The notes beneath the pieces are model-generated. The model had not been told where the DNA came from. It did not search any database and saw nothing but the letters and a program-made list of their open reading frames with translations. From Thermovirgaceae bacterium (GTDB lineage: Bacteria; Synergistota; Synergistia; Synergistales; Thermovirgaceae), in assembly GCA_030656095.1 (NCBI GenBank), contig JAUSOU010000081.1:1-35688 (forward strand): a stretch of DNA of 35,688 nucleotides, given 5' to 3'. This document shows positions 2,980-34,673 of the stretch, piece after piece. Both the position numbers and the translations under genes were made by a program. Within the stretch, counting starts at the first letter, position 1, and each line of letters opens with the position of its first letter.

Positions 2980-3181
2980 TCGAGTTGTTCCGGAAGGATG
3001 GTTTGGCTGTTGAGCTGCTCGCCCTGTCGGGCAAAGATACCCGGCAGAAGCCACGTGGCGGCGCACGAAGCGTTCGAAATTATCCTCGGAACGCTGAACG
3101 ACAAGGAACAGATCGTCCGATAGTACGCTCCTCTGCAGAGGAGTAGCCGGATTACACGGCTTCGAACAGAATGATGAAAGA

Positions 3182-3208
3182 CCTCCCTTGAAGGGGAGGC
3201 CCTTTTTT
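3182..3208 (+). terminator. rho-independent terminator of the thiolase operon
   Basis: CCTCCC pairs with GGGAGG across a short loop and is followed by six T residues. It lies on the plus strand downstream of the thiolase and ends that transcription unit. About 200 bases of leader-like sequence without a clear gene separate it from the thiolase stop. Confidence 0.75.
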
Positions 3209-6764: not shown

Positions 6765-6785
6765 ATCGTTTCGTATGTTGTTTAT

Positions 6786-6814
6786 GGGTCCCGGCTTGTG
6801 CCGGGGCCCTTTTT
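6786..6814 (+). terminator. rho-independent terminator of the 147-residue gene
   Basis: GGGTCCCGGC pairs with GCCGGGGCCC (one G-T pair) around a TTGT loop and is followed by five T. It lies just after the 147-residue gene and upstream of the prepilin peptidase gene. Confidence 0.85.
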
Positions 6815-6848
6815 GCAGATTCTGCAAAAGCCGCCGGGAGGTTGTGAA

Positions 6849-15164: not shown

Positions 15165-15179
15165 AGAACCGCCTCCTGT

Positions 15180-15229
15180 TAAAAAATGTCGAGCGTATAC
15201 TCTGTTCATTATACACTCGACATTTTTTA
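15180..15229 (-). promoter_or_regulatory. GntR operator/promoter, long perfect dyad
   Basis: A 14-bp arm with core AAAAAATGTCGAG (15181-15193) is mirrored by CTCGACATTTTTT (15216-15228), and inner GTATA/TATAC arms pair as well, giving 19 of 20 pairs around a ten-base centre. On the minus strand a TATAAT lies inside the dyad, so repressor binding would block the promoter. The dyad ends 15 bases before the GntR start codon. Confidence 0.8.
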
Positions 15230-15243
15230 CAAGGTCATACTTC

Positions 15244-16448: not shown

Positions 16449-16913
16449 CTAATGTTTTTGAACTTCTGTCTCCTGAATCCTGTTTCCTGTCTCCTTGTTT
16501 TTCACTGCCACAAACACCGCTCTTGCGTCTGCGCAGACCTTACCCGCTTCGTTGATGATCCTGGCCTCGGTGTGTATCTTCCTGCCCTCGACCACTGTTG
16601 CGTTCCCCGACGCGGTATAGTTTTTCCCCGACTCCACGGGTCGCAGAAAGCGCAAAGAGATATTGGCCGTGACCGCCCACTCTCCCGATGTCTGCCGTGC
16701 CGACCAGGCCATCACATCATCGCAGAGCGCGGTCAGTATCCCTCCATGGACGATCCCCTCGTAACCGCACCAGCTGTCTTCGGGGGTGAAGGGAATGACG
16801 GTCTGGCGGGATTCGTCATCCCAGTACAATGTAACTCCGAGAGATCTTGTATTTGTGCCGGTCTTGTCGCAGACGAAGCACCCCTTGGAACCTTCCAGCT
16901 TTTCCATGCCCAT
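16449..16913 (-). CDS. hotdog-fold thioesterase (PaaI/YbgC-like)
   Basis: A 154-residue single hotdog domain. EGIVHGGILTALCDDVMAW carries the HGG motif and the acidic residue of PaaI-type acyl-CoA thioesterases, and ANISLRFLRPVESGKNYTASG is the following strand pair. The substrate is unknown. The last fifteen or so residues (NKETGNRIQETEVQKH) are read through an array of seven-base repeats, so the repeat has probably moved the stop codon and added a foreign tail. It is divergent from the CHASE2 receptor gene with 95 bases between the starts. Confidence 0.85.
   Translation of the reverse strand: MGMEKLEGSKGCFVCDKTGTNTRSLGVTLYWDDESRQTVIPFTPEDSWCGYEGIVHGGILTALCDDVMAWSARQTSGEWAVTANISLRFLRPVESGKNYTASGNATVVEGRKIHTEARIINEAGKVCADARAVFVAVKNKETGNRIQETEVQKH
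16466..16496. repeat. heptameric repeat forming the end of the thioesterase gene
   Basis: On the minus strand the units GGAGACA, GGAAACA, GGATTCA and GGAGACA follow in a seven-base register. They are the same family as the 5064 array, but here they lie within the reading frame. Confidence 0.6.
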
Positions 16914-20196: not shown

Positions 20197-20282
20197 GCCG
20201 GAGTGGCGGAATGGTAGACGCAGCGGACTCAAAATCCGCCGGGCCCTAGCCTGTGGGAGTTCGAGTCTCCCCTTCGGCACCA
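20197..20282 (+). tRNA. tRNA-Leu (anticodon CAA)
   Basis: A complete 86-nt class II tRNA. The acceptor GCCGGAG pairs with CTTCGGC, the anticodon stem is GCGGA/TCCGC with loop CTCAAAA (anticodon CAA), it has a long variable arm and a T-arm with TTCGAGT, and the CCA end is encoded. A hairpin follows (20293-20326). It is the apparent integration target for the copper island to its right. Confidence 0.95.
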
Positions 20283-20430
20283 TAGAAAAGACTCAGGAGC
20301 TCTGATGCTAATGCATTAGAGCTCCTGATTTATGAGGAAACTACAGGATTTTTCGGGTTTTTATCAAAAAACTAACAAATCAGAACGGTAACCACAGGTT
20401 CCTTCCATGTACCGAGGTAGACGTGATCTC
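20283..20430 (+). other. post-tRNA module: hairpin plus tail shared with the two downstream tRNA remnants
   Basis: The stretch between the intact tRNA and the first 127-bp repeat starts TAGAAAAGACTCAGGAGCTCT, forms a strong dyad CAGGAGCTCT/AGAGCTCCTG, and later contains AAAAAACTAACAAATC and ACCACAGGTTCC. The same order of elements follows both tRNA remnants (from 20598 and 27615). It contains no gene and looks like what is left of an earlier element, or like an arm of the attachment site. Confidence 0.55.
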
Positions 20431-20597
20431 GAAAAATGCGGCAAACGGGGTATTTTTAGATGGGTTTTCTCCGTCTGAAGGTCACGGTTTCATTGCCAAT
20501 GCAGGGTTTTTCAGCGGCGACCCTTCTTAAACCCCGGTGTCCTCAAAATCCGCACCTACCTTGGTCTGTGGGAGGAGAGAGTCTCCCTTTCGGCACC
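20431..20597 (+). repeat. left attachment-like unit: 127-bp direct repeat plus tRNA-Leu 3' remnant
   Basis: Bases 20431-20557 match 27449-27575 at 125 of 127 positions, a fixed offset of 7,018. The repeat contains CTCAAAATCCGC (20542-20553), identical to the anticodon loop and 3' anticodon stem of the intact tRNA-Leu. A decayed variable arm, T-arm and acceptor end (CGGCACCG at 20590-20597, CCA mutated to CCG) follow. Tyrosine recombinases often use the anticodon loop as the crossover site, so this unit looks like an att site. Confidence 0.8.
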
Positions 20598-20809
20598 GTA
20601 GAAAAGACTCAAGAGCTCTGACGCTAATGCGTTAGAGTCTTTGTTTTATCCGGTAATAGTAAGGTTTTACGATATCGGAGAAAAACGTGACAAATCACTC
20701 CGGTAGACACAGGTTTCCCACATTCATTGAGGTTGTCTGACGTCTCCTGAGTGCGGTGATGTGGGCTTAATGCCGGCCTTCCGGCCTCACTTCATGAACT
20801 CTCAGAGGT

Positions 20810-22139
20810 TCAGCCGGATGTTCTTCTGAAGGCCCGTCGAAAATATATGTCGATCAGCCCATCCAGTTTCTTTTCGAGGAGCTTGTCGTCTGCCACACTA
20901 ATTTCCTCGTAGAGGGGATCGGCTATGCCGACAAAGGAGTCGACCAGCGCCGGATCGAAGTGACTTCCTCTGCCCTCCGTCAAAATCTGCATTGTCTCTT
21001 TCAGGGCAAGCGGTTCTTTATAGGGCCGCCGGGAGGTCAGGGCGTCAAAAACATCAGCCACGGCGAAGACCCTTGCATTGATCGGGATGTCATTCCCTTT
21101 GAGGCCGGTCACGAAACCAGTCCCGTCAAATTTTTTCGTGATGATACCGGACGACATCCGCGGCATCATCCAGCCAGCCGTAATGCCCAACGATATCGAC
21201 GCCATGGTTTACATGGGTCCTCATGACCTCACGTTCCTCATCTGTGAGTTTTCCAGGTTTTAGGAGGATACTGTCGCTGATCGCGATCTTTCCCACATCA
21301 TGGAGGAATGAACCCTTGATAAGCCCGGCAATGTTCTCCCGCTTCAGGCCGACCGCCTCTCCCAGTCTGACGGCATAGATCGTCACGCGGAAATTGTGGG
21401 TGTTCGTGTCGCTGTCCCGCTTGGCAATGGCGCCGCCCAGAACCTTCAGCATCCCTACGTTGGCATGGTAGAGATCTCCGGTCATTCTGATCAGCCCTTT
21501 GTTCAGAAACAGGACGATCGGGTAGATCGCCAGCGCCGTGAAGAAGATGGACATCACAACCTGCAGCAGGGAGAGAAGGATACGGTTTTTGATCTCCGCC
21601 ATTGTCCGGGGGGTAGCTTTATAAACTCCCTCTAAATACCCTGCGGTCTCCTGGCCGGTTGTCTTCAGGGGTATCTGGATCATGACGAAGATCTGGCCGT
21701 CCGTGCCGTAGAACCGCTGGAAATGAACGTCATCGATCAGGGCGATATCACGGCGATGCCTGCTGATTTTTTCTTCGATCAGCCGCGCGTCAGGATGGTC
21801 CGCCTCGGCGATCAGTTCCCGCTCCCGGTTATAGAGCTTGACGGCGATGAAATGCTTGTCTTCGATGTGCTTCCGCACTTCCTCCCGAAGGTGTTCAAGT
21901 TGCAGTTTATCAGGATTATTGAGGTATTTACTATGGCTTCTTTCGAAATCGCGGAACTCCTCCAGCGCAAGCGCGACAACATAGGCGTCGATCTTCCTCA
22001 CTTCGATAAAGAACACCACCGCGCCGATCAGGATAGAAAGAAGGACCCATGCCAGAAGCAACCTGACTATCAATTCCTGGTTGACATGTTGATTCATCTC
22101 GTTCCTGTCCGCGCCACTCGTCCCTGATCGGTGTGGCAC
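20810..22139 (-). pseudogene. membrane-anchored HD-GYP protein, frameshifted
   Basis: Two overlapping frames (22139-21126 and 21205-20810) together make one HD-GYP protein of about 440 residues. The first holds a helix (about 24-46), an extracytoplasmic sensor of about 140 residues, a second helix (about 186-212) and the start of the HD-GYP domain with FLHDVGKIAISD (His280/Asp281) up to YHHEKI, then stops. The second resumes at KFDGTGFVTGLKG and runs through ARVFAVADVFDALTSRRPYK to the end. The break is at a run of six A (21131-21136); five would restore the frame. The GYP motif is also changed to GFV. The start GTG 22139 has GGAGGC inside the end of the SHOCT gene; ATG 22097 is an alternative. 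It could also be a sequencing error or a slippage site. Confidence 0.8.
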
Positions 22140-22140
22140 C

Positions 22141-22356
22141 TTACGCCTCCAAATCCCTTTTCATGCTTTCAAGCTGTTCTTTCGTGATCTCTCCTGCGGC
22201 ATATCGCCGCTTAAGGATGCCAAGAGGGCTTTCCCCCGACAACTGGCCACGATCCTTGGATTCCGCGCCCCTGGTGAACTGCCAGATCCCTGCCGCAATT
22301 AAAACAATCGGAAGAATCATCCACATATACATTCCTCCGTATCCGAAATTCATCAT
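22141..22356 (-). CDS. small SHOCT-domain membrane protein
   Basis: A 71-residue protein: a Met/Gly/Tyr-rich N-terminus, one helix (about 12-28, WMILPIVLIAAGIWQF) and a C-terminal SHOCT domain (SPLGILKRRYAAGEITKEQLESMKRDLE). SHOCT proteins of this size often sit beside copper-efflux genes; their role is not known. It lies 193 bases downstream of the methyltransferase-like gene and directly before the HD-GYP gene (one base between stop and start). Confidence 0.85.
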   Translation of the reverse strand: MMNFGYGGMYMWMILPIVLIAAGIWQFTRGAESKDRGQLSGESPLGILKRRYAAGEITKEQLESMKRDLEA

Positions 22357-22549
22357 CGGACCCTATCCCTCCCCGAAGTCGCAATCGAAATGGCTGCACG
22401 CGGGAGCCGGCAGGGTCAATCAGGGCGCTGTTGTGGACAAAGCGATCTCTTCATCGATCATACTCCTGTCGTTGAGTCCGGAATCAGTTCCCTTTCTCCT
22501 TGCCATGCCATCCGGCACCTTTATCGGCACCTGAAAGGACGGTGATTGT

Positions 22550-23224
22550 TCACATCGTTTCCTTATGTCGCGGTTTGAGTATGTGTCTGCCGGCTCCAAA
22601 TCCAGGAATAAACGCCGGTGTTATTTGCGCATACTGGTCATAGAGATCACCAAACTCTTTTCTCACCATGGCCTCTTCCTGCCGGGCCAGCCGGATGTAG
22701 ATGACGGTCAACACCGGGAACATCGCCAGGGTGAGCAGCGTAGGCCACATCAGCAGGAACCCGGTCATGATGACAAGAAATCCCGTGTATTGCGGGTGGC
22801 GCACCCAGGCATAAGGCCCAGTTGTCGCCAGAGATTGTTTCTTTTGTGCGGCATGCAGTACCATCCATGCCAGGAAAACCAACAGCATTCCCGCCAGGAT
22901 CGAGATATTGGCGATAAGGTGGATCGGGTTATTGTGCGGGTCTCCTTTCAAGCCAAGGAGCGTGTACCATAGATGCCCGCTCCCATGGGCGAAGATGTCG
23001 GTGTGCGGAAACCTTGTCTGAAGCCACCCTGAAAGGAGGTAGATCGTCAGGGGGAACCCGTACATTTCGGCAAAGAGAGCCACGATAAAGGCGGAAAAAG
23101 CACCGAGGCTCTTCCAGTCCAGTTTCGTTTTCAGCCGGGTGAAGCTGGCCGCAAAGAGAATGAAGATCGCCGAATTTATGAACACAATGGTCCAAAGTCC
23201 GTATGCACTAGACGGAAGAGTCAT
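22550..23224 (-). CDS. isoprenylcysteine carboxyl methyltransferase-family (NnrU/PEMT-like) membrane protein
   Basis: A 224-residue protein with about five helices. The conserved C-terminal core ATTGPYAWVRHPQYTGFLVIMTGFLLMWPTLLT, followed by RLARQEEAMVRKEFGDLYDQYAQITPAFIP, is the ICMT/phospholipid-methyltransferase signature (SAM-binding RHPxY and the EE...E..Y..Y end). The substrate is unknown; members near metal-resistance genes are common. I chose ATG 23224, with GAGGAAA upstream, over the longer frame. It overlaps the preceding small gene by 17 bases. Confidence 0.85.
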   Translation of the reverse strand: MTLPSSAYGLWTIVFINSAIFILFAASFTRLKTKLDWKSLGAFSAFIVALFAEMYGFPLTIYLLSGWLQTRFPHTDIFAHGSGHLWYTLLGLKGDPHNNPIHLIANISILAGMLLVFLAWMVLHAAQKKQSLATTGPYAWVRHPQYTGFLVIMTGFLLMWPTLLTLAMFPVLTVIYIRLARQEEAMVRKEFGDLYDQYAQITPAFIPGFGAGRHILKPRHKETM

Positions 23225-23405
23225 CTGGATTTCCTCGATGGCTGTGGGTGCTGTCCTTCGGAACGCTGCCGGAAGATCTCTTCTCATCCCCGTGGCAGGA
23301 ATCGCTGCCGGAATGATGGCCTCCGCCGCAGCACCCGCCTCTTTTCATCATCATAAACAAGCATCCTACGACTAGCAGCAGCGACAACAGGTTTCCTGGA
23401 TTCAT
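23208..23405 (-). CDS. small Cys/His-rich membrane protein (putative metal binding)
   Basis: A 65-residue protein: one helix (NLLSLLLVVGCLFMMM, about 4-20), followed by KRGGCCGGGHHSGSDSCHGDE and a polar His-containing tail. The clustered Cys, His and Met residues suggest copper binding at the membrane; this is inference. I cannot name the family with confidence (DUF2933-like is possible). ATG 23405 has GGGAGGTG upstream. It is the first gene behind the second MerR-type promoter and overlaps the methyltransferase-like gene. Confidence 0.65.
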   Translation of the reverse strand: MNPGNLLSLLLVVGCLFMMMKRGGCCGGGHHSGSDSCHGDEKRSSGSVPKDSTHSHRGNPDDSSV

Positions 23406-23473
23406 TTTGTGCACCTCCCAGATAGATAGCCCGGTTACCTTGTTTCGGTAATGATCCACCGGGTGTGGGAAGA

Positions 23474-23506
23474 GCATAAAGCCTTGACTATGGTCAAGAG
23501 TCAAGG
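23474..23506 (-). promoter_or_regulatory. MerR-type promoter/operator 2 (small membrane protein operon)
   Basis: On the minus strand TTGACT and TTATGC are 19 bases apart, the over-long spacer that MerR activators need. The spacer region contains the perfect dyad CCTTGACT/AGTCAAGG (23482-23489 and 23499-23506). The sequence closely resembles the promoter in front of merR. Confidence 0.75.
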
Positions 23507-23550
23507 GGCAAATTCAAAAAACTTTACTCCTTGCTTTCAGAGGAGAATTC

Positions 23551-25911
23551 CTATTGATCTTTCTGTGACCTCAGTCGGAGTGCATTGGTTACGACCGAAA
23601 TGGAACTCGCACTCATTGCGGCGGCGGCGATGATCGGGCTGAGCAGGATCCCGAACACCGGGTAGAGCACGCCTGCTGCCAGAGGAACACCCAGGGCGTT
23701 GTAGACAAAGGCGAAGAAGAGGTTCTGCTTGATGTTGCGCATGGTCGCCCGCGAAAGCCTGCGTGCCCGCACGATACCCGTCAGGTCGCCCTTTACCAGG
23801 GTGACTCCCGCGCTTTCCATGGCTACGTCGGTACCGGTACCCATGGCGATGCCAACCTGCGACTGAGCCAGGGCCGGCGCGTCGTTGATGCCGTCACCCG
23901 CCATGGCGACAATGTGTCCCTCATTCTGGAAACGCTTGACCACAGATGCTTTTTCGTCGGGCAACACGTCGGACACCACTTCGTCGATCTCCAGTTTCCT
24001 GGCGACTGCTTCAGCCGTTGCGCGGTTGTCCCCCGTCAGCATGACGATGCGCATTCCCTCTTCATGGAGTTGCCTGATGGCCTCCGGGGTACTCGGCTTG
24101 ATGGGGTCCGATACAGCGAGAATTCCCGCGGCCTTGCCGTTGACAGCCACGAACATCACGGTCTGTGCTTCTGCTCTCAGTCTTTCCGCTTCGGCACCAA
24201 GCATGCCTGTATCGACCTTGAATTCTTCCATCAGTTTCAGATTTCCAAGGGTAACGGACTGCCCATTTACCTCGCCGGAGACGCCTTTCCCGGTATGAGA
24301 GGCAAAATTCCCGGCGTCAGCGAGGGTTGCTCCCTGCTCGATGGCTCCGGACACGATGGCGGCTGCAAGAGGATGTTCGCTTCCTTTCTCCAGGGTCGCC
24401 GCTATGGAGAGCATGTTTTTCTCGTCAAAGCCCGGGGCGGCGATCACGGTGGTGAGCCGGGGTTTGCCTAGTGTCAGGGTTCCAGTCTTGTCCACCACAA
24501 GAGTATCAACCTTCCGGAGGGTTTCAATCGCTTCCGCGTTCCTGAAAAGGACTCCCATTGTGGCTCCCTTGCCGGTCGAGACCATGATAGACAGAGGTGT
24601 CGCCAGTCCGAGGGCGCAAGGGCAGGCGATGATCAGAACCGAGACGGCTGCAATGAGGGCATAGGCCAACCTGGGTTCTGGACCAACTGCAAACCATATT
24701 CCGAAGGCTGCAAGGGCAATTGCCATGACAACAGGGACGAAATAACCCGAAACAGTGTCGGCGAGTTTCTGGATCGGAGCCCGGCTTCGCTGGGCCTCGG
24801 CAACCATGCTGACGATCTGGGAAAGAAGAGTCTCGCTTCCGACTCTTTCTGCCGCCATGATCAGGCTCCCCGTTGCGTTGATCGTCGCTCCAGTCACCTT
24901 GTCACCTGCCTGTTTGGATACGGGGATCGGTTCACCGGTGATCATGGATTCGTCTATCGAACTGGTTCCCTCCAGCACCACGCCGTCGGTGGGGACCTTC
25001 TCTCCTGGTCGGATCCGAAGTCGGTCCCCTTTTTTGACCTCGCCAAGGGGTATATCGATCTCGCTCCCGTCATCATTGAGTTTCCGGGCCGTCTTTGGTG
25101 CCAGCCCCAGCAGGGCTTTGATCGCCGTTCCTGTTTGACTTCGGGCGCGCAGTTCAAGAACCTGTCCCAGCAGGATCAGGGTGACAATGACGGCGGCCGC
25201 CTCAAAATAGACATGAACGGCTCCACCGGCTCCCTGCATTTCCTGCGGAAACAACTTCGGGAAAAGAACGCCTACGATGCTGTAGCCATAGGCGACGGAA
25301 ACACCCATGCTGATGAGCGTAAACATATTCAGGCTCATATTGACGATTGACTGTGCGCCCCTGACAAAAAATGGCCACCCTGCCCACAGCACTACCGGCG
25401 TGGCGAGAAGCAGTTCGACCCAGTTCAGTACTTGAGGAGAGGCCATCCCTTCTATCAGATGACCTCCCGGCAGCATTTCCCGCATGGCGATAAGGACCAG
25501 GGGAATGGTCAGGATAAGCCCGAACAGGAATCGCTTCCGCATGTCATCGTACTCGGGGTTTTGTTCTTCCTCCTCCAGTGATGCTGTCCGTGGTTCGAGA
25601 GCCATGCCGCACTTGGGGCAACTGCCTGGTTTATCCCGAATTACCTCCGGATGCATGGGGCATGTGTATTCCCTGCCGGGCTTCTTTTCCTGTTTCTCGT
25701 TGGAATTGTCCTTGCTTTTCGTATAGGCCTCCGGGTTCTGCCGGAACTTCTCGAGACAGTGAGGACTGCAGAAGTAGAAGGGTTTGTCCTTATATTCGAA
25801 TGTGGAGAAAGACGATTTGTCGTCAGTTGACATTCCGCAAACGGGATCCGTGACTTTTCCATCTCCCTCATGCTGGTGATGCTTGTGGTGCTCATGCACG
25901 GTGTTATCCAT
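23551..25911 (-). CDS. copA: copper-translocating P-type ATPase (P1B), YHS and heavy-metal-binding N-terminus
   Basis: A 786-residue P1B ATPase that exports Cu+ from the cytoplasm. The N-terminus lacks the usual HMA domain. It has a His-rich start, a YHS-type motif (DPVCGM to [12 protein letters not shown], about 22-62) and a heavy-metal-binding domain ([10 protein letters not shown]...[12 protein letters not shown], about 82-107). Eight helices surround the actuator (TGEP near 325), the CPC metal site (IACPCALG, about 430), the phosphorylation site DKTGT (Asp474), SEHPL, MLTGDN and [10 protein letters not shown]. The last helices have YNALG and [15 protein letters not shown], the Cu+ (P1B-1) signature. 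ATG 25911 with GGGAGGT upstream; it overlaps merR by eight bases. Confidence 0.95.
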
Positions 25912-26362
25912 GGTTTGTACCTCCCTTAACATGGTTGTGATGATGCAGGGGCTCTGTCTCATCAGAGAAAGATAGCGCCTCGATGATCGGGCATTCACTG
26001 ACCGGTCCGTGCCCGTCGCAGGCGGCGACGAGATGTTCAAGTGTTTCCAGTATCTGGGTCAGGTCCCTGATCTTCTGCCTTATACTCCTGGCTTTCTCTT
26101 CGGTTCGGAGTTTCACGTCGGACTTGGATGCCCGGGAATCGTGCTGCAGGGCCAGCAAGTCCTTTATCTCGCAGAGCGAGAATCCCAGTTCCTTTGCCCG
26201 TTTGATAAAACGGAGACGAGCGGCGTCGCCTTCTGGGTACATGCGATAATTCGAATCCGTTCTGGGAGGAGGAGCAATCAGGCCTCTCCCTTCATAGAAC
26301 CGGATGGTGTCAATGGAGACTTCGGCCATTCTGGCAAGCCTGCTGATGGTCAATCCCGTCAT
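25904..26362 (-). CDS. MerR-family heavy-metal-responsive regulator
   Basis: A 152-residue MerR regulator. The N-terminal winged helix ([26 protein letters not shown]) is followed by a dimerisation helix and a metal loop with [12 protein letters not shown] (Cys-x8-Cys), as in CueR/MerR-type sensors. The C-terminus is His-rich (LHHHNH). Copper is the likely inducer because copA follows and overlaps. I chose ATG 26362, where the canonical start [10 protein letters not shown] lies and a G-rich Shine-Dalgarno precedes it. It should bind the two 19-bp-spacer promoters at 26407-26439 and 23474-23506. Confidence 0.9.
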
Positions 26363-26406
26363 CGGGTGATTCCCCCCCGCTGTTTTATGCATATTCTCAT
26401 GATGGA

Positions 26407-26439
26407 TTGTAAACCTTTGGCCATAGTCAGGAGTCAAGG
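26407..26439 (-). promoter_or_regulatory. MerR-type promoter/operator 1 (merR-copA)
   Basis: On the minus strand TTGACT (26437-26432) and TTACAA (26412-26407) are separated by 19 bases. The interval has an imperfect dyad (AGTCAAGG and CCTTTGGC). It shares TTGACTC-TGAC-AT-G-CAAGG with promoter 2. Confidence 0.75.
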
Positions 26440-26732
26440 CCTGTGCGCTCTGATGTTAAAGGACAGGTTAGAATCATTGTACGTTTAAGCAGAAGGATAT
26501 ACAATTAGCAATGTACCAAGAAGAAAGACCAGAATGTATGAACATTAAGGAGTAAGATTCGGCCAGTTTTTTCTCGTGATGAGTGTCCATGTGCTCTGTA
26601 ATGAAGAGAGTGCGGGCGGCTCCATGCGGTTTGCGGCGAGTATCATCCTGAACCGCGCGGATATCGATACCGCTCTCCGGCAAAGGATGTCAAGGCATTA
26701 AAATTGCAAAAGAGGACAGAGGGAGATGCGAG
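26440..26732. other. intergenic region between merR and the DUF302 gene
   Basis: About 290 bases. I see no supported gene. A short plus-strand frame ending near 26700 (containing GGSMRFAASIILNR) and a 69-codon minus-strand frame have no recognisable family. The region probably holds the divergent promoter of the DUF302 gene. A decayed gene is possible. Confidence 0.35.
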
Positions 26733-27119
26733 ATGTTTGATTACACGGTAACCAGCAAGAAGAGCTTCGAACAGGCAGTAGCAGATCTGAAGAAAGCCTT
26801 GATCGGATTGAAGTTCGGTGTTTTGTGGGAGCTGGATATCGTAGCTAAAATGAAAGAAAAAGAGGTTGAGTATCAGGGAGGACAGTTCATCATCCTGGAG
26901 GTCTGCAATCCTCAGAGAGCAAAATCCGTTCTGGACATAGACATAAAGGCGGGATATTTCCTGCCCTGCAAAATTGTGGTTTATACAAAGGACGGGATTA
27001 CACATATTGGAACAGCCCGACCGTCGACGCTGATTGTCCTTATGGGCAATGCGACATTGAGCAAAATTGCAGAAGAAGTGGACAGGGATATCATTGCTGC
27101 CATAGATAGTGCAATATGA
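26733..27119 (+). CDS. DUF302 domain-containing protein
   Basis: A 128-residue soluble protein covering a whole DUF302 domain: KKSFEQAVADLKKALIGLKFGVLWELDI at the start, then ILEVCNPQRAKSVLDIDIKAGYFLPCKIVVY with the family CNP motif, and a final helix (IAEEVDRDIIAAIDSAI). DUF302 proteins bind haem or metal in a few cases, but their general role is unknown. AGGGAGA lies eight bases before the ATG. It is the only plus-strand gene in the island and the last one before the right repeat. Confidence 0.88.
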   Translation: MFDYTVTSKKSFEQAVADLKKALIGLKFGVLWELDIVAKMKEKEVEYQGGQFIILEVCNPQRAKSVLDIDIKAGYFLPCKIVVYTKDGITHIGTARPSTLIVLMGNATLSKIAEEVDRDIIAAIDSAI

Positions 27120-27448
27120 CACCGTCTTTTTTTATGCGATTTACAGGTTGCAGAGCTTCGTTTCCAGCACTTCCAAAGCGTCATGAGGTCATTTTTGAGT
27201 GGTGTGTCATTCCCCTGGAGGGCAGAAGGTCCTTGCAGAGGATCTGGGCCATGTTGTAGAAAAGCCGATAGAGAGCCGCATGCAACTTATTGAGCGTTCC
27301 GGCAAATTCAAACGGAAGGTTTGTGCTTGATCTGAGCTCGTAAATACCAAAGAGGGTATTTATCCCCCCGGTAGGCGGTCTGATTGCAGAAATATACCGG
27401 AGCTGTTCTGTCAAAGAAAATATTCAGGTCTGTCAGATCCGTCAAACT
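27120..27448. other. intergenic region at the right end of the island
   Basis: About 330 bases between the DUF302 gene and the right 127-bp repeat. A 77-codon minus-strand frame (27414-27181) has no recognisable family; it could be a gene remnant. A GC-rich inverted stretch lies around 27350-27380. No integrase, tRNA or terminator that I can defend. Confidence 0.35.
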
Positions 27449-27614
27449 GAAAAATGCGGCAAACGGGGTATTTTTAGATGGGTTTTCTCCGTCTGAAGGT
27501 CATGGTTTCATTGCCAATGCAGGGTTTTTCAGCGGCGACCGTTCTTAAACCCCGGTGTCCTCAAAATCCGCACCTGGAGACCTTGTGGGGGTTCAAATCC
27601 CCCCTCCGGCACCA
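27449..27614 (+). repeat. right attachment-like unit: 127-bp direct repeat plus tRNA-Leu 3' remnant
   Basis: Bases 27449-27575 repeat 20431-20557 with two mismatches. CTCAAAATCCGC (27560-27571) is followed by a well-kept T-arm (GGGGGTTCAAATCCCCC) and acceptor end CTCCGGC plus ACCA (to 27614). This is the better preserved of the two tRNA remnants and is probably the displaced original 3' end of the tRNA gene. The D-arm and 5' half are missing, so it is not a tRNA gene. Confidence 0.8.
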
Positions 27615-27627
27615 TATTAGTAACACA

Positions 27628-27665
27628 AGGGCTCCAGCGCCGATGCACCGGAGTCTTTTCTTTTT
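27628..27665 (+). terminator. terminator-like hairpin of the displaced tRNA-Leu 3' end
   Basis: GGGCTCC and GGAGTC pair around an inner GCG/TGC stem, followed by TTTTCTTTTT. It corresponds in position to the hairpins after the intact tRNA and after the left remnant, so it was probably the original tRNA terminator. Confidence 0.6.
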
Positions 27666-27738: not shown

Positions 27739-28014
27739 CTACCCGCATTGCCTGTTTGAATTTTTGGTCTTCATGATCTGGGCGGCATCGACGACGGACA
27801 GGGCCCAGACGGCTACGCCCCCGCTGATTTGACCAATGAAGCCTGCCTGCGGCGGAGCGAAGCGGAAAGTCATGAAACCAAGAATCACCATCCAGAACAA
27901 CATCACAAGCCCCCGGTTTGGCCTTCCCAGGAAGACATGTGCCGAACCGGGAACAACAAGGGCCGAGAGCAGTATCAGCCACGGAGGCGAGATTTCTGTG
28001 CGAGTCCCTTCCAC
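27739..28014 (-). CDS. small membrane protein, last gene of the AcnX/APC operon
   Basis: A 91-residue protein with three helices (about 12-30, 35-52, 57-76) and the motif VPGSAHVFLGRPNRGLVMLFWM before the second helix, which recalls TM2-like or small permease-associated proteins. No function known. The start is GTG at 28014, with AAGGGGG eight bases upstream. It follows the APC permease by ten bases. Its stop lies immediately beside the tail of the right attachment unit. Confidence 0.7.
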   Translation of the reverse strand: MEGTRTEISPPWLILLSALVVPGSAHVFLGRPNRGLVMLFWMVILGFMTFRFAPPQAGFIGQISGGVAVWALSVVDAAQIMKTKNSNRQCG

Positions 28015-28024
28015 GTTTTCCCCC

Positions 28025-29395
28025 TTAGTATCCCACGGGGCGCGGCCACTTCAACGCCCCCTCTGAGATGAGCTTCTTGCGGTCCACGAACCGGTAGCGG
28101 TGAAGGGCAAACCACAGGGAGGCCAGGGTATAGAAAAGGAAACCCGCGACCATGTTCAGCCAGTAGCCGAAGTACATCCCTACAAGCGTGGCCAGGGTCA
28201 GGGCCAAGAGTAGGATCGATGTCCAGGGATGCCACGGCGACAGGTAGCCCCGCTCGATGCTCCCCAGGGGGTACATCCGACGAAACTTGAACATCATGAC
28301 CGCCGTGAACACGTACACGAGAAGCGCCGAGAGGATCGAGAAGGTGATGACCTGGTCCAGCAGCCCCGTGAAGCCGAAGGCCAGGGCGATGGGAAGGAGG
28401 AAAAGGATGGCCCGGTATGGCGTCCGGTACTTGGGGTGCACCGCGGCAAAATACTCGGGGATCAGGGTGTCCCTGGCCATGGCGAACCATGCCCGGGAGG
28501 AATCGGTGATGCAGCCGTTTGCGCTGGCCATGCACGAGAGAATCGTGCCGATGAAAAGCAGGATGATGACCACGGGCATCCGCGTGGCCATGGCCGCGTC
28601 AAAGAGGGGAAAAACCGAGGATCCCAATTCCTTCGAGTGAACGAGCCCCGAGCATACGAACCAGGTGATAGTGGCTCCGATGAGGAGCGTCACCATCCCA
28701 GTGAGGGCCCCCACCGGGAGGGAACGCCCCGTGGAGCGGCATTCTTCCGCCGCCAGGACCGTCCCCTCGATGCCCAGGAAGAACCACACGCCGAATTGGA
28801 ACGCCCCCAGGATGCCGATCCATCCGTAGGGGAGGCCGTTGGAGAACTCCGCCAGCCGGAGAAGTGATTGATGGGGGATGAAGAACTTTGTCGAGAAGAG
28901 TAGAATGAAGATCGTCAGGTAGGCGATGGCGGTGATGATGAAGTTGAATGTCAGGGTGGCGTAAACTCCCCGGTAGTTTAGCCAGGTCAGCCCTACGAGT
29001 GTGAGGATGATGAAGGGTAGGCTGTTGATATGGGGACTCACGGTCTTCAGAATTTCGCCCACCACCAGGGCGTCGGCCGCCTCCAGCATGACGTACTCGA
29101 AGACGAGCATGAGGCCCACGTTGAAGGCCGCCAGCGGGCCCATGAAATACTTTGCCATGGCGTACTGTCCGCCGGCCTCCGGGATGACGGAGCCCATCTC
29201 CGTGTTCACCATGACGAGGGATGTGTAGAGCAACCCCATCACCCAGCAGGCGATGATAGCTCCCAGGGTCCCCCCCTTGGCCACGGTGAAGTTCCAACCC
29301 ATGAATTCCCCCACCAGGACTATCCCCACGCCCAAAGCCCAGATGTGGACGGGGCCCAGAACCTTCGACAGGTGGTTTGTCTTCTCCTCGGGCAT
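28025..29395 (-). CDS. APC-superfamily amino acid permease
   Basis: A 456-residue permease with about 12 helices. The first half has ALGVGIVLVGEFMGWNFTVAKGG (helix 1, with the broken-helix region used for substrate binding), TEMGSVIPEAGGQYAMAKYFMGPLAAF, and MLEAADALVVGE. It resembles the ethanolamine/amino-acid permease branch of the family. It probably imports the amino acid handled by the upstream AcnX enzymes. GGGAGG lies eight bases before the ATG, within the end of the preceding 39-residue gene. It is surrounded by four small membrane genes in the same operon. Confidence 0.9.
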   Translation of the reverse strand: MPEEKTNHLSKVLGPVHIWALGVGIVLVGEFMGWNFTVAKGGTLGAIIACWVMGLLYTSLVMVNTEMGSVIPEAGGQYAMAKYFMGPLAAFNVGLMLVFEYVMLEAADALVVGEILKTVSPHINSLPFIILTLVGLTWLNYRGVYATLTFNFIITAIAYLTIFILLFSTKFFIPHQSLLRLAEFSNGLPYGWIGILGAFQFGVWFFLGIEGTVLAAEECRSTGRSLPVGALTGMVTLLIGATITWFVCSGLVHSKELGSSVFPLFDAAMATRMPVVIILLFIGTILSCMASANGCITDSSRAWFAMARDTLIPEYFAAVHPKYRTPYRAILFLLPIALAFGFTGLLDQVITFSILSALLVYVFTAVMMFKFRRMYPLGSIERGYLSPWHPWTSILLLALTLATLVGMYFGYWLNMVAGFLFYTLASLWFALHRYRFVDRKKLISEGALKWPRPVGY

Positions 29396-29398
29396 GAT

Positions 29399-29518
29399 CT
29401 ATTCCTCCCGCTTTGAGGTGAGCTGTCGTTCCACCCGGATGAAATCGAAGGCCATGAGACCCAAAAGGAGGGCGGAAAGAGCCCAGGCCAGGCCGTTCAG
29501 AATCTGCCACCAGTTCAT
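29399..29518 (-). CDS. 39-residue single-span membrane protein, easily missed
   Basis: Starts with ATGA overlapping the stop of the 108-residue membrane gene and ends three bases before the APC permease. The protein begins MNWWQILNGLAWALSALLLG, has one helix (about 8-26) and a charged cytoplasmic tail (RVERQLTSKREE). It carries the Shine-Dalgarno of the permease in its last codons. Tight coupling on both sides argues that it is a real subunit or chaperone of the permease. No family recognised. Confidence 0.7.
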   Translation of the reverse strand: MNWWQILNGLAWALSALLLGLMAFDFIRVERQLTSKREE

Positions 29519-29841
29519 CGGGGGTTCCCCGCCGGAGCGGGTTCCAGGGAGGTTCCTGCTCCAGGCTCCGCTTTTTCAGCTTCGTAAAGCCCCTCGACGA
29601 TCTCGCCCAGTTCCCGGTTGGACTGAGGAATGACGATAGCCAGGTAGGTGCCCAGGCTCAGGAAGGTCAGGAGGAAGGTCCCTGCCGAAAAAGTGTAGGT
29701 CATCCCCCCCCCGCTCCCCGACCCAACAAGAACCTTGCCCCTCATCAGCATTGTCGTGAGAAGCGTCGTGAAGCACAGGATCATGATGAAAAGGACGTCG
29801 AAAACTTCCATGAATCGGTTCTTTCCCATATTCCCCGCCAT
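29515..29841 (-). CDS. small membrane protein of the AcnX/APC operon, 108 residues
   Basis: Two helices (about 13-33 and 50-70) with a glycine/serine-rich loop between them (GSGSGGGMTYTFSAG), then a cytoplasmic acidic and proline-rich tail. AAAGGAAG lies about ten bases before the ATG. It overlaps the 39-residue gene by four bases (ATGA) and follows the 97-residue gene by 21 bases. Function unknown; by context it is part of the transport system. Confidence 0.75.
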   Translation of the reverse strand: MAGNMGKNRFMEVFDVLFIMILCFTTLLTTMLMRGKVLVGSGSGGGMTYTFSAGTFLLTFLSLGTYLAIVIPQSNRELGEIVEGLYEAEKAEPGAGTSLEPAPAGNPR

Positions 29842-29862
29842 CGTGTCGTCTTCCTTTCTGTG

Positions 29863-30156
29863 TCAAAGGCCTGCGTTGTTGCAGTCTTCCAGGTAGAGGT
29901 CTTCCCTGCGCTTCCGGAGGTGAATTACGACAGCCACAAGAGCACCGCTGGAAAAAATGCCGACAAGAAGGGCTGTGGCGGTGGCGACCGCCCGGGTCGC
30001 TCGATCCGGGGCTATCCCGTGGACCTGGAAGAGGACAAAGAGAAGAACGACCCACATCGCTGCGAAGAATATTCCGACCAGGGCCATGTCCGACCGGTAC
30101 ATCCGGTTCATTGTGGCGGCTCTCCTGGATTCTGCCGAAAGTGCTGGCTGGTTCAT
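29863..30156 (-). CDS. small membrane protein of the AcnX/APC operon, 97 residues
   Basis: A protein with two helices (about 24-45 and 57-80) and a basic cytoplasmic end (HLRKRREDLYLED). The ATG is one base after the stop of the aconitase-X small subunit; AAGGAG lies nine bases upstream, inside that gene. I recognise no family. The tight spacing ties enzymes and transporter into one unit. Confidence 0.75.
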   Translation of the reverse strand: MNQPALSAESRRAATMNRMYRSDMALVGIFFAAMWVVLLFVLFQVHGIAPDRATRAVATATALLVGIFSSGALVAVVIHLRKRREDLYLEDCNNAGL

Positions 30157-30157
30157 T

Positions 30158-30595
30158 TTAGAAAACTCCTTGCCCGGAACCGGAAACCTTGCAGATGGTT
30201 ACAATTCCGCTTGTTCCGTCAACCGTGACCTGGTCCCCGTTTTCAATGACCTTGAAGGGATCATTCTCAAGGTCGACGACCGTGGGCACGCCGCATACGA
30301 CGGCAGCCACACCAGTCCTGGAGTCGATTTTCGGCAGGACCAGGGCGCAGGGTGATATGCCCCTGAGCCTGGCAGCGTGGAAATGGCTGGACCAGCCGTT
30401 GGATCCCTTGCCCCCCGAGAGGACGAGGACGACGCCGCAAATGGTCTGTCCCTCCGCGGGATGTCCCTTTTCAATAACCATTCCAGTGGCCTCGTCGATA
30501 CCACTCCACCCTTGTATCGTCTCCCGACAGACCATGGCGGGTCCGGAGGCGATGCCGGAAATGACTCCTCTGCCGCGGATTATAATTGGATCCAT
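30158..30595 (-). CDS. aconitase X swivel domain, small subunit (DUF126)
   Basis: A 145-residue AcnX small subunit: IIIRGRGVISGIASGPAMVCRETIQGWSGID at the start, GVVLVLSGGKGSNGWSSHFHAARLRG in the middle, then a swivelling-domain fold to the end. Two-subunit AcnX enzymes are dehydratases; the characterised ones act on cis-3-hydroxy-L-proline or on mevalonate 5-phosphate. I chose ATG 30595, the usual family start, with AAGGTGG just upstream; ATG 30613 is possible. It overlaps the large-subunit gene by 16 bases. Confidence 0.9.
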   Translation of the reverse strand: MDPIIIRGRGVISGIASGPAMVCRETIQGWSGIDEATGMVIEKGHPAEGQTICGVVLVLSGGKGSNGWSSHFHAARLRGISPCALVLPKIDSRTGVAAVVCGVPTVVDLENDPFKVIENGDQVTVDGTSGIVTICKVSGSGQGVF

Positions 30596-31866
30596 GTTGA
30601 CCACCTTCCCCATGTTCCAGAGATGGAAGCTTGCAGGCACTCTTCCCAGTTTCCGAAGAAAACCTTGGTTTTTGTCAAGGGTTTGATGTAATGGGCCTGT
30701 TTGGCAGAATCGAAAGCCATGGCCCGGGTGCCGGCCGGCCATTTTTCGCTCACCAGCGGACAACTGCCCACCATCAAGACTCCACCCGCATCCTCAATGG
30801 TTTTCGTGTACCCGCATCGGTCTGCAACGGCCTTGATCGGAAGCGCTGTCCAGACATGAAGAGTAACTCCTGCCTTCACCTTGCACCCATTCAGGAAACC
30901 GGCAACCGCGCTTATCTGGTCAATGGAGTAATGAGGGCATCCCAGGCTGACGTAATCCACTTCCCCGGCCTCCTGGTCGCAAAGGATCTCGCGGGCTTCG
31001 TTCAGCTGGCGAGGCCCGATCTCAATCTGATCTTTTAGCCCTGAAGGGGAAAGGCATGCCTGAAGCGAAGAAGCTTCTGGTGTGGCCCCGATTATGTGAC
31101 AAAGCTCTGGACCGGATGTGGTAGCCAGCGACGCAAAGCAGGATTTCAGGCGGAGCATGTCCGCCCTTTCAACGTTTCCGGTTAGAATTGGAATGGAGTG
31201 GGGAGGGAGCTTAAGGCCAATGGAATAACCCAAAAGGTCCCATTCTTCAACGGTTTCTGGCTTGCATGTAACATCAAAAAGGTGAGTTCCCTTGCGACTT
31301 TCCGGGAGATGCATTCCCCAAAGTGGAGTTCTGGTGCAAACCGCCGAACAGAAGGCGGCCTCTATGCCGTCTGCATTGGCACAGGCACCCCACAGCGAGT
31401 TCATCATGAGGACCGCGTGGGATTCGGTTGTTACGTAATGTTCTCCGAACAAGGGGATAAATCCGGTCATGTAGGGGACACAGCTTCCCACCAGGTGAAC
31501 CCCGGCCTTCAGGCACCGATCGAGGTACCGTTCGTTTTTTCGGAATTCATCCCCGCGGCAGCCCATTTTAGACCAGTTCAGGTGATCGACAGGAGAGCAG
31601 TCGGACTGGGAAAAGCACCCCACGGCGTCGAAGGGGATCTTCTCCGATGAGCAGAACCACATCTCGGACATAATCTCATCCATGTCCTTCGACCGGACCG
31701 CCTCAAGGTAGTGATGAGCTCCGCAGAAGAGATGGGCTTTAGAGACCTTGCAAAGTCTTTCAGCACCTAGAACGTTTGCGTACTTGACAATAAAATCCAA
31801 TGTCTTCTGTTTAAGAGGACCGGACTCTCCGCCCAGGACCCGCTTTTCCTCTTCGCTAAAGTACAT
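30580..31866 (-). CDS. aconitase X catalytic subunit (DUF521), probable cis-3-hydroxy-L-proline dehydratase
   Basis: A 428-residue large subunit of aconitase X. Family motifs: GSCVPYMTGFIPLFGEHYVTTESHAV near residues 127-152 (relatives usually have SESSAV), NSLWGACANADGIEAAFCSAV, GCPHYSIDQI, and SCPLVSEKW followed by DSAKQAHYI. Several cysteines can hold the Fe-S cluster. It lies next to an ornithine-cyclodeaminase-like reductase, the pair known from cis-3-hydroxy-L-proline breakdown: dehydration to pyrroline-2-carboxylate, then reduction to proline. The substrate is therefore inferred from context. AAGGAG lies nine bases before the ATG. A strong hairpin precedes the gene. Confidence 0.9.
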   Translation of the reverse strand: MYFSEEEKRVLGGESGPLKQKTLDFIVKYANVLGAERLCKVSKAHLFCGAHHYLEAVRSKDMDEIMSEMWFCSSEKIPFDAVGCFSQSDCSPVDHLNWSKMGCRGDEFRKNERYLDRCLKAGVHLVGSCVPYMTGFIPLFGEHYVTTESHAVLMMNSLWGACANADGIEAAFCSAVCTRTPLWGMHLPESRKGTHLFDVTCKPETVEEWDLLGYSIGLKLPPHSIPILTGNVERADMLRLKSCFASLATTSGPELCHIIGATPEASSLQACLSPSGLKDQIEIGPRQLNEAREILCDQEAGEVDYVSLGCPHYSIDQISAVAGFLNGCKVKAGVTLHVWTALPIKAVADRCGYTKTIEDAGGVLMVGSCPLVSEKWPAGTRAMAFDSAKQAHYIKPLTKTKVFFGNWEECLQASISGTWGRWSTWIQL

Positions 31867-31892
31867 GAGCAGCTCTCCTTTTTCTGAAAGAT

Positions 31893-31925
31893 AAGGCCCG
31901 GGAAACGTTGAATTTCCCGGGCCTT
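31893..31925 (-). promoter_or_regulatory. intercistronic hairpin between the reductase and aconitase X
   Basis: A perfect 13-bp stem, AAGGCCCGGGAAA with TTTCCCGGGCCTT, encloses a seven-base loop. It lies in the 74-base gap before the AcnX gene. No good T-run follows on either strand, so it is more likely a processing or stabilising element, or a weak attenuator, than a full terminator. Confidence 0.65.
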
Positions 31926-31940
31926 GTTTAAAAAGAGGGG

Positions 31941-32930
31941 TTAAAGTTTTACCCAGGTCCCAATCTTCTTCTCCAAGGCTTTTTTATAGATCATCCGGCC
32001 AGTCATTATGTCATGGCTGGCGATTCCCATGAGTACTGCGCCGCGGCGGCCTTGCAGGATAGCTGGTTTGACCCCGGCACAGATTTCTCCCATGTCGGCG
32101 TAAATCTCTTCCTTCTTCGGGTAACCTCCGTGGAAGTAGACGCCCAAGCCCTGAGTCAAGAGATACTGGTTCCAGTCGTCGCAGACGAAGCAGTTGCGAT
32201 TGTTCATGATGTCGGCGTCAAAGCTGGAATCATAGTCCACCGCTATGGCCAGCACGTCCTTCTTGAGCCAGGAAGAGCGGACGAAGCGCTCCGGTTTCTC
32301 TAGGATGGGGGCGCAGGTGGCTATGACATCGGCGTCTTTTACGGTCTCTTGGACATTTTTGCCGACGACAAACTCAACACCAGGAAGATTTGGTGTGAGT
32401 TCTTCGACAAACTTCTTGACCTGGTTGGGGAAAATATCGAAAATCTTTACGGTCTTCATTTTGGGAAGTACTTCTTTGAAAGCGAGCAGATTGGTTCGTC
32501 CCTGGACTCCCAGTCCGATAATGGAAACGACTTCGCTTTTGGGATCAGCCAGGTACTTTGCGCAAACTCCTGAAGCGGCACCGGTACGCCAGGCGGTCAT
32601 CCAGTTTGCATCCATGACTGCCTTTATGATGCCGGTGTCCGGATCATTCATGCACCACACCCCATTGATATAGGGGAGCCCCTTAGCCTGGTTGCTGGGA
32701 TAGCCAGCAGCCCATTTAATGCCGCAACAGTCAACGTCGCCACCGACCCAACAGGGCATGGCGTGGATGAAGCAATCTTTGCGGGGGTGGACGCCGATCT
32801 TTGCAGGTAATTCGACCTTCTTTTCACCCTTCAGGCGGAACCCTTCATCAATTGCGTCAACAATCTCCTTCATTCTGATGCCCAGTGATACGACCTCTTC
32901 CTGAGAAATCCACAGCACATCGTAAGCCAT
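31941..32930 (-). CDS. ornithine cyclodeaminase / mu-crystallin family, probable pyrroline-2-carboxylate reductase
   Basis: A 329-residue NAD(P)-dependent enzyme of the OCD/mu-crystallin family: KIGVHPRKDCFIHAMPCWVGG and CGIKWAAGYPSN in the substrate domain, DANWMTAWRTGAASGVCAKYLA, then the Rossmann motif IIGLGVQGRTN. Relatives reduce cyclic imines (LhpI) or act as amino-acid dehydrogenases. Next to aconitase X a delta-1-pyrroline-2-carboxylate reductase is the best guess. ATG 32930 has AAAGGAGG upstream; the longer frame to 32975 overlaps the preceding gene. The spacing to the upstream lyase gene is 16 bases. Confidence 0.85.
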   Translation of the reverse strand: MAYDVLWISQEEVVSLGIRMKEIVDAIDEGFRLKGEKKVELPAKIGVHPRKDCFIHAMPCWVGGDVDCCGIKWAAGYPSNQAKGLPYINGVWCMNDPDTGIIKAVMDANWMTAWRTGAASGVCAKYLADPKSEVVSIIGLGVQGRTNLLAFKEVLPKMKTVKIFDIFPNQVKKFVEELTPNLPGVEFVVGKNVQETVKDADVIATCAPILEKPERFVRSSWLKKDVLAIAVDYDSSFDADIMNNRNCFVCDDWNQYLLTQGLGVYFHGGYPKKEEIYADMGEICAGVKPAILQGRRGAVLMGIASHDIMTGRMIYKKALEKKIGTWVKL

Positions 32931-32946
32931 TGCTGTTGCCTCCTTT

Positions 32947-34242
32947 TTAGCTTTGTCCTGCAAGAAGGACATCAAGTACCGCCTGGTCCACGTTTTTCAT
33001 GCCCCGGTCGGTGATGATCGCAAGGTTGTCCATTGTTTCCTGGAATGTGTCTCCGACGATTCCGTTGCCTTTAGGAACTGTTGCTCCAGCTTGCGCAAGA
33101 TAGGCCGTTTCTATTGCAATTGCCACCGAAGTGGCAATTTTCAGGGCACAGCCGTACTTTGCTCCATCGCATAGCATTCCCGTGAGGTTGGCCGTCATCA
33201 ACTGAACCGCGCTTTCAACCTGCCCGCAGGTTCCCCCCAGCATGTAGGTCACCGCGGCCGCAGCTCCAGTGCCTGCCGCAACGGCGCATCCGCAGTGTGG
33301 AGTGAGGATCCCCGTCCGGGTCTTGATGACTCCCACGACAAGAAGTCCCAAGGCAAGAGCTTGAGCGATCTCTTCATCGTTTTTGCCCAGGTGGCGTCCC
33401 ATTTCCCCGACCGTGATGAAGTAAGTAATCCCGTGGTTGCCGCTGCCGAAGCAGCCGAAAACGGGAACCTTGATCCCGCCCATCCGGGCATCAGCTGCTG
33501 CAGCGGCTAAAATTCGTATCCGGTTAATGATTGAATCTGGAAGAGCCCCTTCCTCCAGGAGAGATTGAAGATATTTTCCCAGCTCTAGACCAGCGTGTTC
33601 GGCCAAACCGGCTTGCGCGGCATGAAGGTTCTGCGTCACGCCCTTAAGAAGGAACAAGAGCTCCGCAGGCTTTAATGCCTCGATAGTATCAACGATCTCA
33701 CTGATTGAAATATCATGGAGATCCTGCAGGCTGTCCCTTCCGGAAAGAGTGGCTTCATCACAGGCTGTTTCGGCCCGAAATGTTGAGTGCCCGTTGACTT
33801 TCTTTTCCAGGAGTCGGTCATGGGCCCCCTCTATCAAAGCTTCGTATACTCCCTTTTCGGTTACGACAGTAGCTGTAATACGTATCCCCGTGGCTTCTTC
33901 GTCGAGTTCGAACCGCACCTCGTGGTCTTTCAGGAAGGCTTTCGCCTGCTCGACATCGCCAGGTTCAATGTCCTTGAAGAGCTCAAGTCCCGCCTCGGGG
34001 CGTCCCTTTATAATGGCAAGCGCAACGGCCAGGTCGACACCGGAACTACGGGTTCCGGGGATCCCCACGGAAACGGCATCCTTGTAGATGTTCCTGTCAA
34101 GGCGTACTCGTACCTTCCGGATCTTCCCCTCTGCGCCTTGGCAGGCGTGCGCCACGGCAAGGCCAATTGCCACCGGATCCGTGCACCCGATGGTCAGGAA
34201 AGTGTGCTGATGGAGGACGTTAAGTGCCGTATGCTGTTCCAA
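32947..34242 (-). CDS. UPF0597 / CyuA-like Fe-S cysteine desulfidase or serine-dehydratase-alpha-type lyase
   Basis: A 431-residue protein of the UPF0597 family. GCTDP with Cys20 is the invariant N-terminal motif, and Cys317/Cys319 (TPHCGCAVAAGTG), Cys358 (MLCDGAKYGC) and Cys365 supply the [4Fe-4S] cluster of the serine-dehydratase-alpha fold. Characterised relatives (CyuA) break down L-cysteine to pyruvate, ammonia and sulfide through an enamine. RidA upstream would remove such enamine or imine products. Twenty bases separate it from ridA. The real substrate in this operon may be another beta-substituted amino acid. Confidence 0.88.
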   Translation of the reverse strand: MEQHTALNVLHQHTFLTIGCTDPVAIGLAVAHACQGAEGKIRKVRVRLDRNIYKDAVSVGIPGTRSSGVDLAVALAIIKGRPEAGLELFKDIEPGDVEQAKAFLKDHEVRFELDEEATGIRITATVVTEKGVYEALIEGAHDRLLEKKVNGHSTFRAETACDEATLSGRDSLQDLHDISISEIVDTIEALKPAELLFLLKGVTQNLHAAQAGLAEHAGLELGKYLQSLLEEGALPDSIINRIRILAAAAADARMGGIKVPVFGCFGSGNHGITYFITVGEMGRHLGKNDEEIAQALALGLLVVGVIKTRTGILTPHCGCAVAAGTGAAAAVTYMLGGTCGQVESAVQLMTANLTGMLCDGAKYGCALKIATSVAIAIETAYLAQAGATVPKGNGIVGDTFQETMDNLAIITDRGMKNVDQAVLDVLLAGQS

Positions 34243-34262
34243 GCGAAACTCGCCAGCCCTTT

Positions 34263-34652
34263 TCAGGCCTTCTCGGTAGTGGCTATTACGTCGATCTCTA
34301 CCTTTGCATCGAGTGCCATCCCCCCGACTTCAACAAAGCAGCGTGCTGGGAAGTACCCGTCGAAGAAGGATTTATAAACCTCGTTGATAACCTTGAAATC
34401 CTTGATATCGGCAGCATAGATGACGGCCTTGACGATGTTGTTCACGGTCATGCCCTGGCTTGCCAAAACTCCCTGGATGTTTTTCATCACCTGGGTTGTT
34501 TCTGCCCCCGGATCCCCGCTTCCGACCATTTTCCCAGTCCTGGGGTCGATGGCGATCTGTCCGCTCAGGAAAAGGAAGGGGCCTGCATAAACTCCCTGAC
34601 TGTATGCTCCTACGGCTGCAGGAGCCTTGTCTGTTGAAACAACTCGGTTCAT
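34263..34652 (-). CDS. ridA: RidA family imine/enamine deaminase
   Basis: A 129-residue RidA protein: APAAVGAYSQGVYAGPFLFLSGQIAIDPRTG, NIQGVLASQGMTVNNIVKAVIYAAD, and FPARCFVEVGGMALDAKVEIDVIA with the conserved arginine that holds the imine carboxylate. RidA hydrolyses reactive 2-aminoacrylate and similar imines. ATG 34652 is the start: AAGGAG is nine bases before it but touches the ATG at 34661. It is the first gene of the operon. The IS5-like element begins about 22 bases upstream. Confidence 0.93.
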   Translation of the reverse strand: MNRVVSTDKAPAAVGAYSQGVYAGPFLFLSGQIAIDPRTGKMVGSGDPGAETTQVMKNIQGVLASQGMTVNNIVKAVIYAADIKDFKVINEVYKSFFDGYFPARCFVEVGGMALDAKVEIDVIATTEKA

Positions 34653-34673
34653 GTTTCCCATCTCCTTTTTTAA

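Follow-up and report, generated by a model that had tools for sequence, protein, structure and literature searches.

The tRNA-Leu(CAA) gene studied here is followed by an array that was probably built by serial integration at the tRNA site, giving a composite, integrase-less and partly decayed island that combines a CIME with a "microCIME". The window, that is the whole 35,688-nucleotide stretch analysed, is the complete contig C8 of a 1.92-Mb genome (169 contigs, estimated 89% complete). From the upstream side the locus consists of the 5' half of the tRNA, a gene-less unit of 314 bp (unit 1), a displaced tRNA-Leu 3' half (half 2), a copper unit of 7,018 bp (unit 2), a further displaced half (half 3) and acquired-looking genes.

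In the proposed mechanism, integration of the tyrosine-recombinase type would have taken place at the anticodon loop at least two times. Each incoming unit would have brought its own tRNA 3' half and terminator, by which the tRNA would be rebuilt, and the older 3' half would have been pushed outward at each integration. The copper unit would represent one integrated unit and the 314-bp unit beside the tRNA a second, reduced to its two ends. Both may have lost their own integrase or never carried one, in which case they could move only with a helper recombinase supplied in trans or by exchange between the 127-bp arms that end the two units. Because no insertion enzyme is found in the copper block, it resembles a reduced and partly decayed relative of known "cis-mobilisable" genomic islands.

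Three nested tRNA-Leu halves

The tRNA at the head of the array is the single intact tRNA-Leu found by ARAGORN (Table 1). Three tRNA-Leu 3' halves, one of them within the intact tRNA, are present in the same orientation and all start in the anticodon loop. Their homology, counted from 20228, 20542 and 27560, takes in the terminator hairpin and continues for about another 100 bp, the downstream homology common to the three (terminator hairpin and arm) amounting to about 150 bp in all. In alignments of the three junctions the identity by segment is mostly 62-81%. The predicted terminator stability drops outward from -30.1 over -21.5 to -14.4 kcal/mol, a gradient that successive displacement of tRNA halves is expected to produce. 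The T-arm is better in the outermost half 3 than in half 2. Signs of decay in units 2 and 3 comprise the damaged T-loop, the weakening terminators and a frameshifted gene.

The only direct-repeat family in the window at the setting used consists of the 127-bp arms, which are 98% identical at a spacing of 7018 bp, are mismatched at positions 20485 and 20523 and share a longest exact stretch of 54 bp. The terminal sequence of each repeat is CTCAAAATCCGCACCT; both copies end in CCCCGGTGTCCTCAAAATCCGCACCT, leading into the tRNA-Leu 3' half, which starts with CTCAAAATCC at each repeat. The repeat ends fall inside or just after the tRNA core. Chance is ruled out for the repeat and tRNA similarity, because a search of the own genome with 20431-20620 matched the tRNA region at E = 2.9e-14 and the second arm at E = 1.1e-58. 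The right arms of units 1 and 2 are 98% identical, whereas the left arms of both are only 64-81% identical. The unit ends therefore appear to differ in history, gene conversion or mosaic ends being assumed. Integrase arm-type binding sites common to left and right arms were also considered; the similarity was weak (shuffle fraction 0.016-0.52) and such sites are not claimed.

In unit 1, a left end consisting of tRNA 3' half, terminator and arm is followed almost immediately by a right end formed by the 127-bp arm, and no gene was detected in the leftover reading frames checked. The initial annotation had described two near-identical direct repeats 7,018 bp apart that run into tRNA-Leu 3' halves from the anticodon loop, and both observations were reproduced (halves at 20542 ff. 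and 27560 ff.). Its two partial halves are genuine, but the count falls short, since the intact tRNA adds a third. The annotation had overlooked this third nested half, the gene-less 314-bp unit and the comparable sites of contig C39 and genome G002.

Table 1. Features of the tRNA-Leu(CAA) locus and of related sites. Positions refer to the window unless another contig is named.
Feature	Position	Strand	Basis or remark
Intact tRNA-Leu(CAA), putative attL	20197-20282	+	ARAGORN; Rfam RF00005, 57.5 bits
Unit 1, gene-less, 314 bp, microCIME-like	20228-20541	+	alignments of three junctions
Terminator hairpin of intact tRNA-Leu	20293-20328	+	-30.1 kcal/mol
Right-end arm copy 1 (direct repeat)	20431-20557	+	repeat search; end CCCCGGTGTC-CTCAAAATCC-GCACCT
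Displaced tRNA-Leu 3' half 2	20542-20597	+	junction alignments; T-loop damaged
Unit 2, copper unit, 7,018 bp, between displaced halves 2 and 3	20542-27559	.	
Terminator after half 2	20615-20638		weaker
HD-GYP gene, frameshifted	20810-22139	-	two overlapping frames, 20810-21205 and 21126-22139
Small SHOCT-domain protein	22141-22356	-	
ICMT/PEMT-like (isoprenylcysteine-methyltransferase-like) membrane protein	22550-23287	-	
Small Cys/His-rich frame	23208-23504	-	without Pfam match
Copper-type P1B ATPase	23551-25911	-	CPC motif, YHS and HMBD domains
MerR-family regulator	25904-26437	-	
DUF302 protein	26733-27119	+	
Right-end arm copy 2 (direct repeat)	27449-27575	+	repeat search
Displaced tRNA-Leu 3' half 3, outermost	27560-27614	+	junction alignments; T-arm intact
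Terminator after half 3	about 27627-27658		weakest
Possible third unit	27739-34661	-	far end not seen before contig end
C39 junctions (L006, G000:C39)	C39 3075-3100; 7090-7225; 9225-9362	all one strand	
Conserved stretch of about 100 bp, window	3080-3215		
Same, L168 (G001:C78)	2770-2900		
Same, L169 (G040:C4)	6765-6900; 11700-11870		

Copper cargo, recombinases and the variable downstream side

The copper ATPase of unit 2 is accompanied by an ICMT/PEMT-like gene of a kind that on plasmids is a frequent neighbour of copper ATPase genes. The HD-GYP gene is frameshifted near 21126-21205, between HHEK and FDGTG, and the split reflects either a pseudogene or an assembly error. Because of this frameshift, the "complete copper module" of the initial annotation holds for the metal genes but not for every gene of the unit. 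That the segment is devoid of integrase and relaxase was confirmed in the genes and larger leftover frames tested, in which no Pfam or PHROGs match to a recombinase and no match of note to a relaxase or phage was obtained. An overlooked recombinase gene, named in the annotation as evidence that would count against it, was not found, and a hidden recombinase inside the island is ruled out on the same grounds.

In the whole genome four PF00589 matches were found, on contigs C142, C83, C96 and C80. The gene on C142 adjoins a tRNA-Arg and that on C83 adjoins the tmRNA; from their strong scores and the two-per-genome pattern, those on C96 and C80 would be the XerC/XerD pair. Ten genomes of the family yielded neither a tRNA-Leu-associated integrase nor a parent ICE or IME at this tRNA-Leu from which a CIME could derive. 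Viral contigs gave no match to the att-site motif with a strict pattern, and with a looser pattern five stretches that were coding-like by inspection and lacked a tRNA half, which rules out a virus or phage with this att site among them. In phage and plasmid records, matches were limited to genes for tRNA-Leu and for distant copper ATPases. The helper-dependent, cis-mobilisable element that the annotation had envisaged is supported in its att-like anatomy, its lack of a recombinase and its acquired cargo, but present or recent mobilisability is no more than a possibility, since an integrase at tRNA-Leu was found in none of the ten family genomes and units 2 and 3 are decayed.

The upstream gene order, up to the thioesterase (16449-16913) and then the tRNA, is kept in seven relatives (G001, G003, G004, G006, G007, G008 and G016), none of which matches the window beyond the tRNA 3' end. 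The gene directly after the tRNA in G008 lies about 5.6 kb off in G007, and in G002 about 7.5 kb separate the tRNA from a sequence that adjoins it in G007. As downstream gene content differs among relatives, tRNA-Leu(CAA) is a variable spot in the family. The contigs of G002, G007 and G016 stop at this tRNA and that of G001 is gapped inside it, which may, at a guess, reflect strain variation.

A relative of the copper ATPase with 92% identity is encoded in the same-genus genome G001, at another location, on a 4.5-kb contig in which a scan detected no tRNA-Leu half, and one with 83% amino acid identity in G040, a member of another family in which MerR and DUF302 genes adjoin it. On account of these two relatives, the cargo is regarded as horizontally moved, and sequence comparison indicates that it has moved between families. 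The copper region is 79.6% identical in DNA to G040 over 3 kb; for upstream backbone genes compared with G016, of the same family as G040, the identity is about 65-73%. None of the relatives examined carries copper genes at the same place, and the counter-example of syntenic copper genes without repeats that the annotation had raised was not encountered.

A conserved stretch of about 100 bp comprises a gene end (..IVR-stop), a hairpin GAAGCCG-loop-CGGCTTC and then a terminator hairpin. In G040 the copper module has this stretch on either side, and in G001 on one side; the single copy in the window is remote from the copper unit. The stretch may represent a second type of boundary repeat. Downstream of half 3, the possible third unit encodes an amino-acid permease, aconitase X and ornithine cyclodeaminase-like, serine-dehydratase-alpha-like and RidA-like proteins. 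The permease is absent in the other nine family genomes and is 81% identical in G017, of another family, within a syntenic cluster. Elsewhere in the window, a GntR-like regulator gene, so named from its sequence only, has at its start a 25-nt imperfect inverted repeat (15175-15234) with a 10-nt spacer and 88% complementarity.

A right-end motif at six junctions and the competing explanations

The right ends share the motif CCCCGGTRYM directly followed by CTCAAAATCC, which recurs at three similar junctions on C39 (one at two mismatches) and at one site in G002, a genome of another genus. CCCCGGTRYM, itself outside the tRNA, directly adjoins the anticodon-loop core in six junctions, which come from two genera. 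Among 183 genomes of the order, exact matches were limited to the present genome (G000) with four and G002 with one, a further C39 copy having two mismatches; about 0.03 exact matches would be expected by chance across the set (own arithmetic). In the other genomes of the order the remaining matches deviated at one or two positions; those inspected with a single mismatch (G122 and G143) lacked a tRNA half. In named genomes seven matches were counted, close to chance expectation.

Several observations sit uneasily with serial integration, namely the mismatch between left- and right-arm divergence, the better T-arm of half 3 than of half 2, the lack of a tRNA-Leu integrase in ten family genomes and in viral contigs, and the C39 sites without an adjoining intact tRNA. 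The arm divergence, the T-arm and the missing integrase are the reason why two rival explanations were retained. It is possible, if unlikely, that old tandem duplications of the tRNA-Leu tail arose by replication or homologous recombination, and that the copper genes were inserted between the copies by homologous or illegitimate recombination without any site-specific recombinase. Such a history would account for homology that extends about 150 bp past the tRNA, beyond the need of most att cores, for left arms far more diverged than right arms and for the want of a known integrase for this tRNA-Leu site in the ten family genomes, and homologous exchange would be possible between arms of 127 bp. 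However, copying of a tRNA tail cannot create the non-tRNA motif CCCCGGTRYM that abuts the core at all six junctions, and every half starts at the anticodon loop, the subsite that integrases use most often.

The junctions on C39 separate folD, a sodium:solute symporter, a block of peptidase, substrate-binding and amidohydrolase genes, and a PLP-dependent enzyme. At two of the three a decayed tRNA-Leu half and terminator are kept, with 92% identity over 105 bp between them, and at the third the core alone is kept; no intact tRNA was found on the contig. An fhs-folD pair adjoins the C39 junctions, and its folD is merely 61% identical to that of the same-genus genome. No such junction follows folD in G001 or G002. 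In G002 the exact motif CCCCGGTACACTCAAAATCC comes after a Phd/YefM-ParE toxin-antitoxin pair and abuts a displaced tRNA-Leu half, and the C39 site at 7201 is preceded by a decayed copy of the end of this toxin. On the G002 contig C55 (L108, 1-1130) the Phd/YefM and ParE pair lies between two tRNA-Leu 3' halves, and about 96 bp past each half is repeated at 90% identity.

These sites might suggest that small integrase-less cassettes of this bacterial family, carrying a copper module, a toxin-antitoxin pair or single transporters, share the right-end motif and accumulate in arrays of one orientation on tRNA-Leu 3' halves, with a resident tyrosine recombinase acting on them in trans in an integron-like capture with the tRNA half as recombination site. 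We consider such a family-wide capture system improbable. That the cassettes are still being moved in this manner is likewise improbable: the blocks between same-strand C39 sites are short, with one to few genes, a toxin-antitoxin pair adjoins the G002 site and a decayed one the C39 site at 7201, and the genome has two non-Xer-like integrases, yet these two sit at tRNA-Arg and tmRNA, the sites show divergence and decay, different arrays have no cassette in common and the motif occurs in just two of the 183 genomes. Misassembly or misbinning, with nested repeats wrongly joined or C39 derived from another organism, is conceivable in a fragmented MAG, the more so as contigs in G001, G002, G007 and G016 end or are gapped at this tRNA, but is very improbable given that the repeat copies differ at two positions with a longest exact stretch of 54 bp, that the left segment, the right segment and C39 are similar in tetranucleotide composition and that the upstream side of the tRNA is syntenic with relatives.

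Relation to integrons, tDNA islands and CIMEs

Serial integration at the tRNA is the explanation that we prefer; if the cassette arrays were real, they would constitute a new route of gene capture, which the present evidence does not require. The likeness to an integron consists in short gene blocks between repeated sites of the same orientation, with a toxin-antitoxin gene beside one site. Unlike in an integron, the sites are tRNA-Leu 3' halves and not attC, and with the general PF00589 model no IntI was recognised in the genome, the matches being those at tRNA-Arg and tmRNA and the XerC/XerD-like pair. The right-end motif, found on two contigs and in two genera, offers a concrete sequence for finding a helper recombinase.

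The standard signature of tDNA islands is an intact tRNA with a displaced 3' fragment in the same orientation, and the anticodon subsite is used by 2,083 of the 3,919 islands catalogued by Islander (PMC4383910). The copper island has this signature downstream of its tRNA, at the anticodon-loop subsite, but contains no integrase gene and would therefore be rejected by Islander's integrase filter; unit 1, at 314 bp, also falls below the 2-kb length filter. Integrase-based island finders miss such islands, and the locus provides a clear example, from a little-studied lineage, of a tRNA island that lacks an integrase and is accompanied by a gene-less unit.

In Streptococcus, CIMEs and gene-less microCIMEs occur in tandem, by accretion, at the 3' end of a gene, with sizes of 1.2-13 kb for CIMEs and 130-220 bp for microCIMEs, and metal-resistance cargo is reported for CIMEs (PMC7563491). 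The present array differs in its target, the anticodon loop of tRNA-Leu(CAA), in its unrelated lineage and in lacking a tandem ICE or IME as well as any known parent element. Unit 2 resembles a CIME in that 7.0 kb of cargo without recombination, conjugation or mobilisation genes is bounded by att-like sites, recognised from their anatomy in the sequence. Unit 1 resembles a microCIME in being gene-less and in tandem with another element, and at 314 bp it is somewhat longer than those described.
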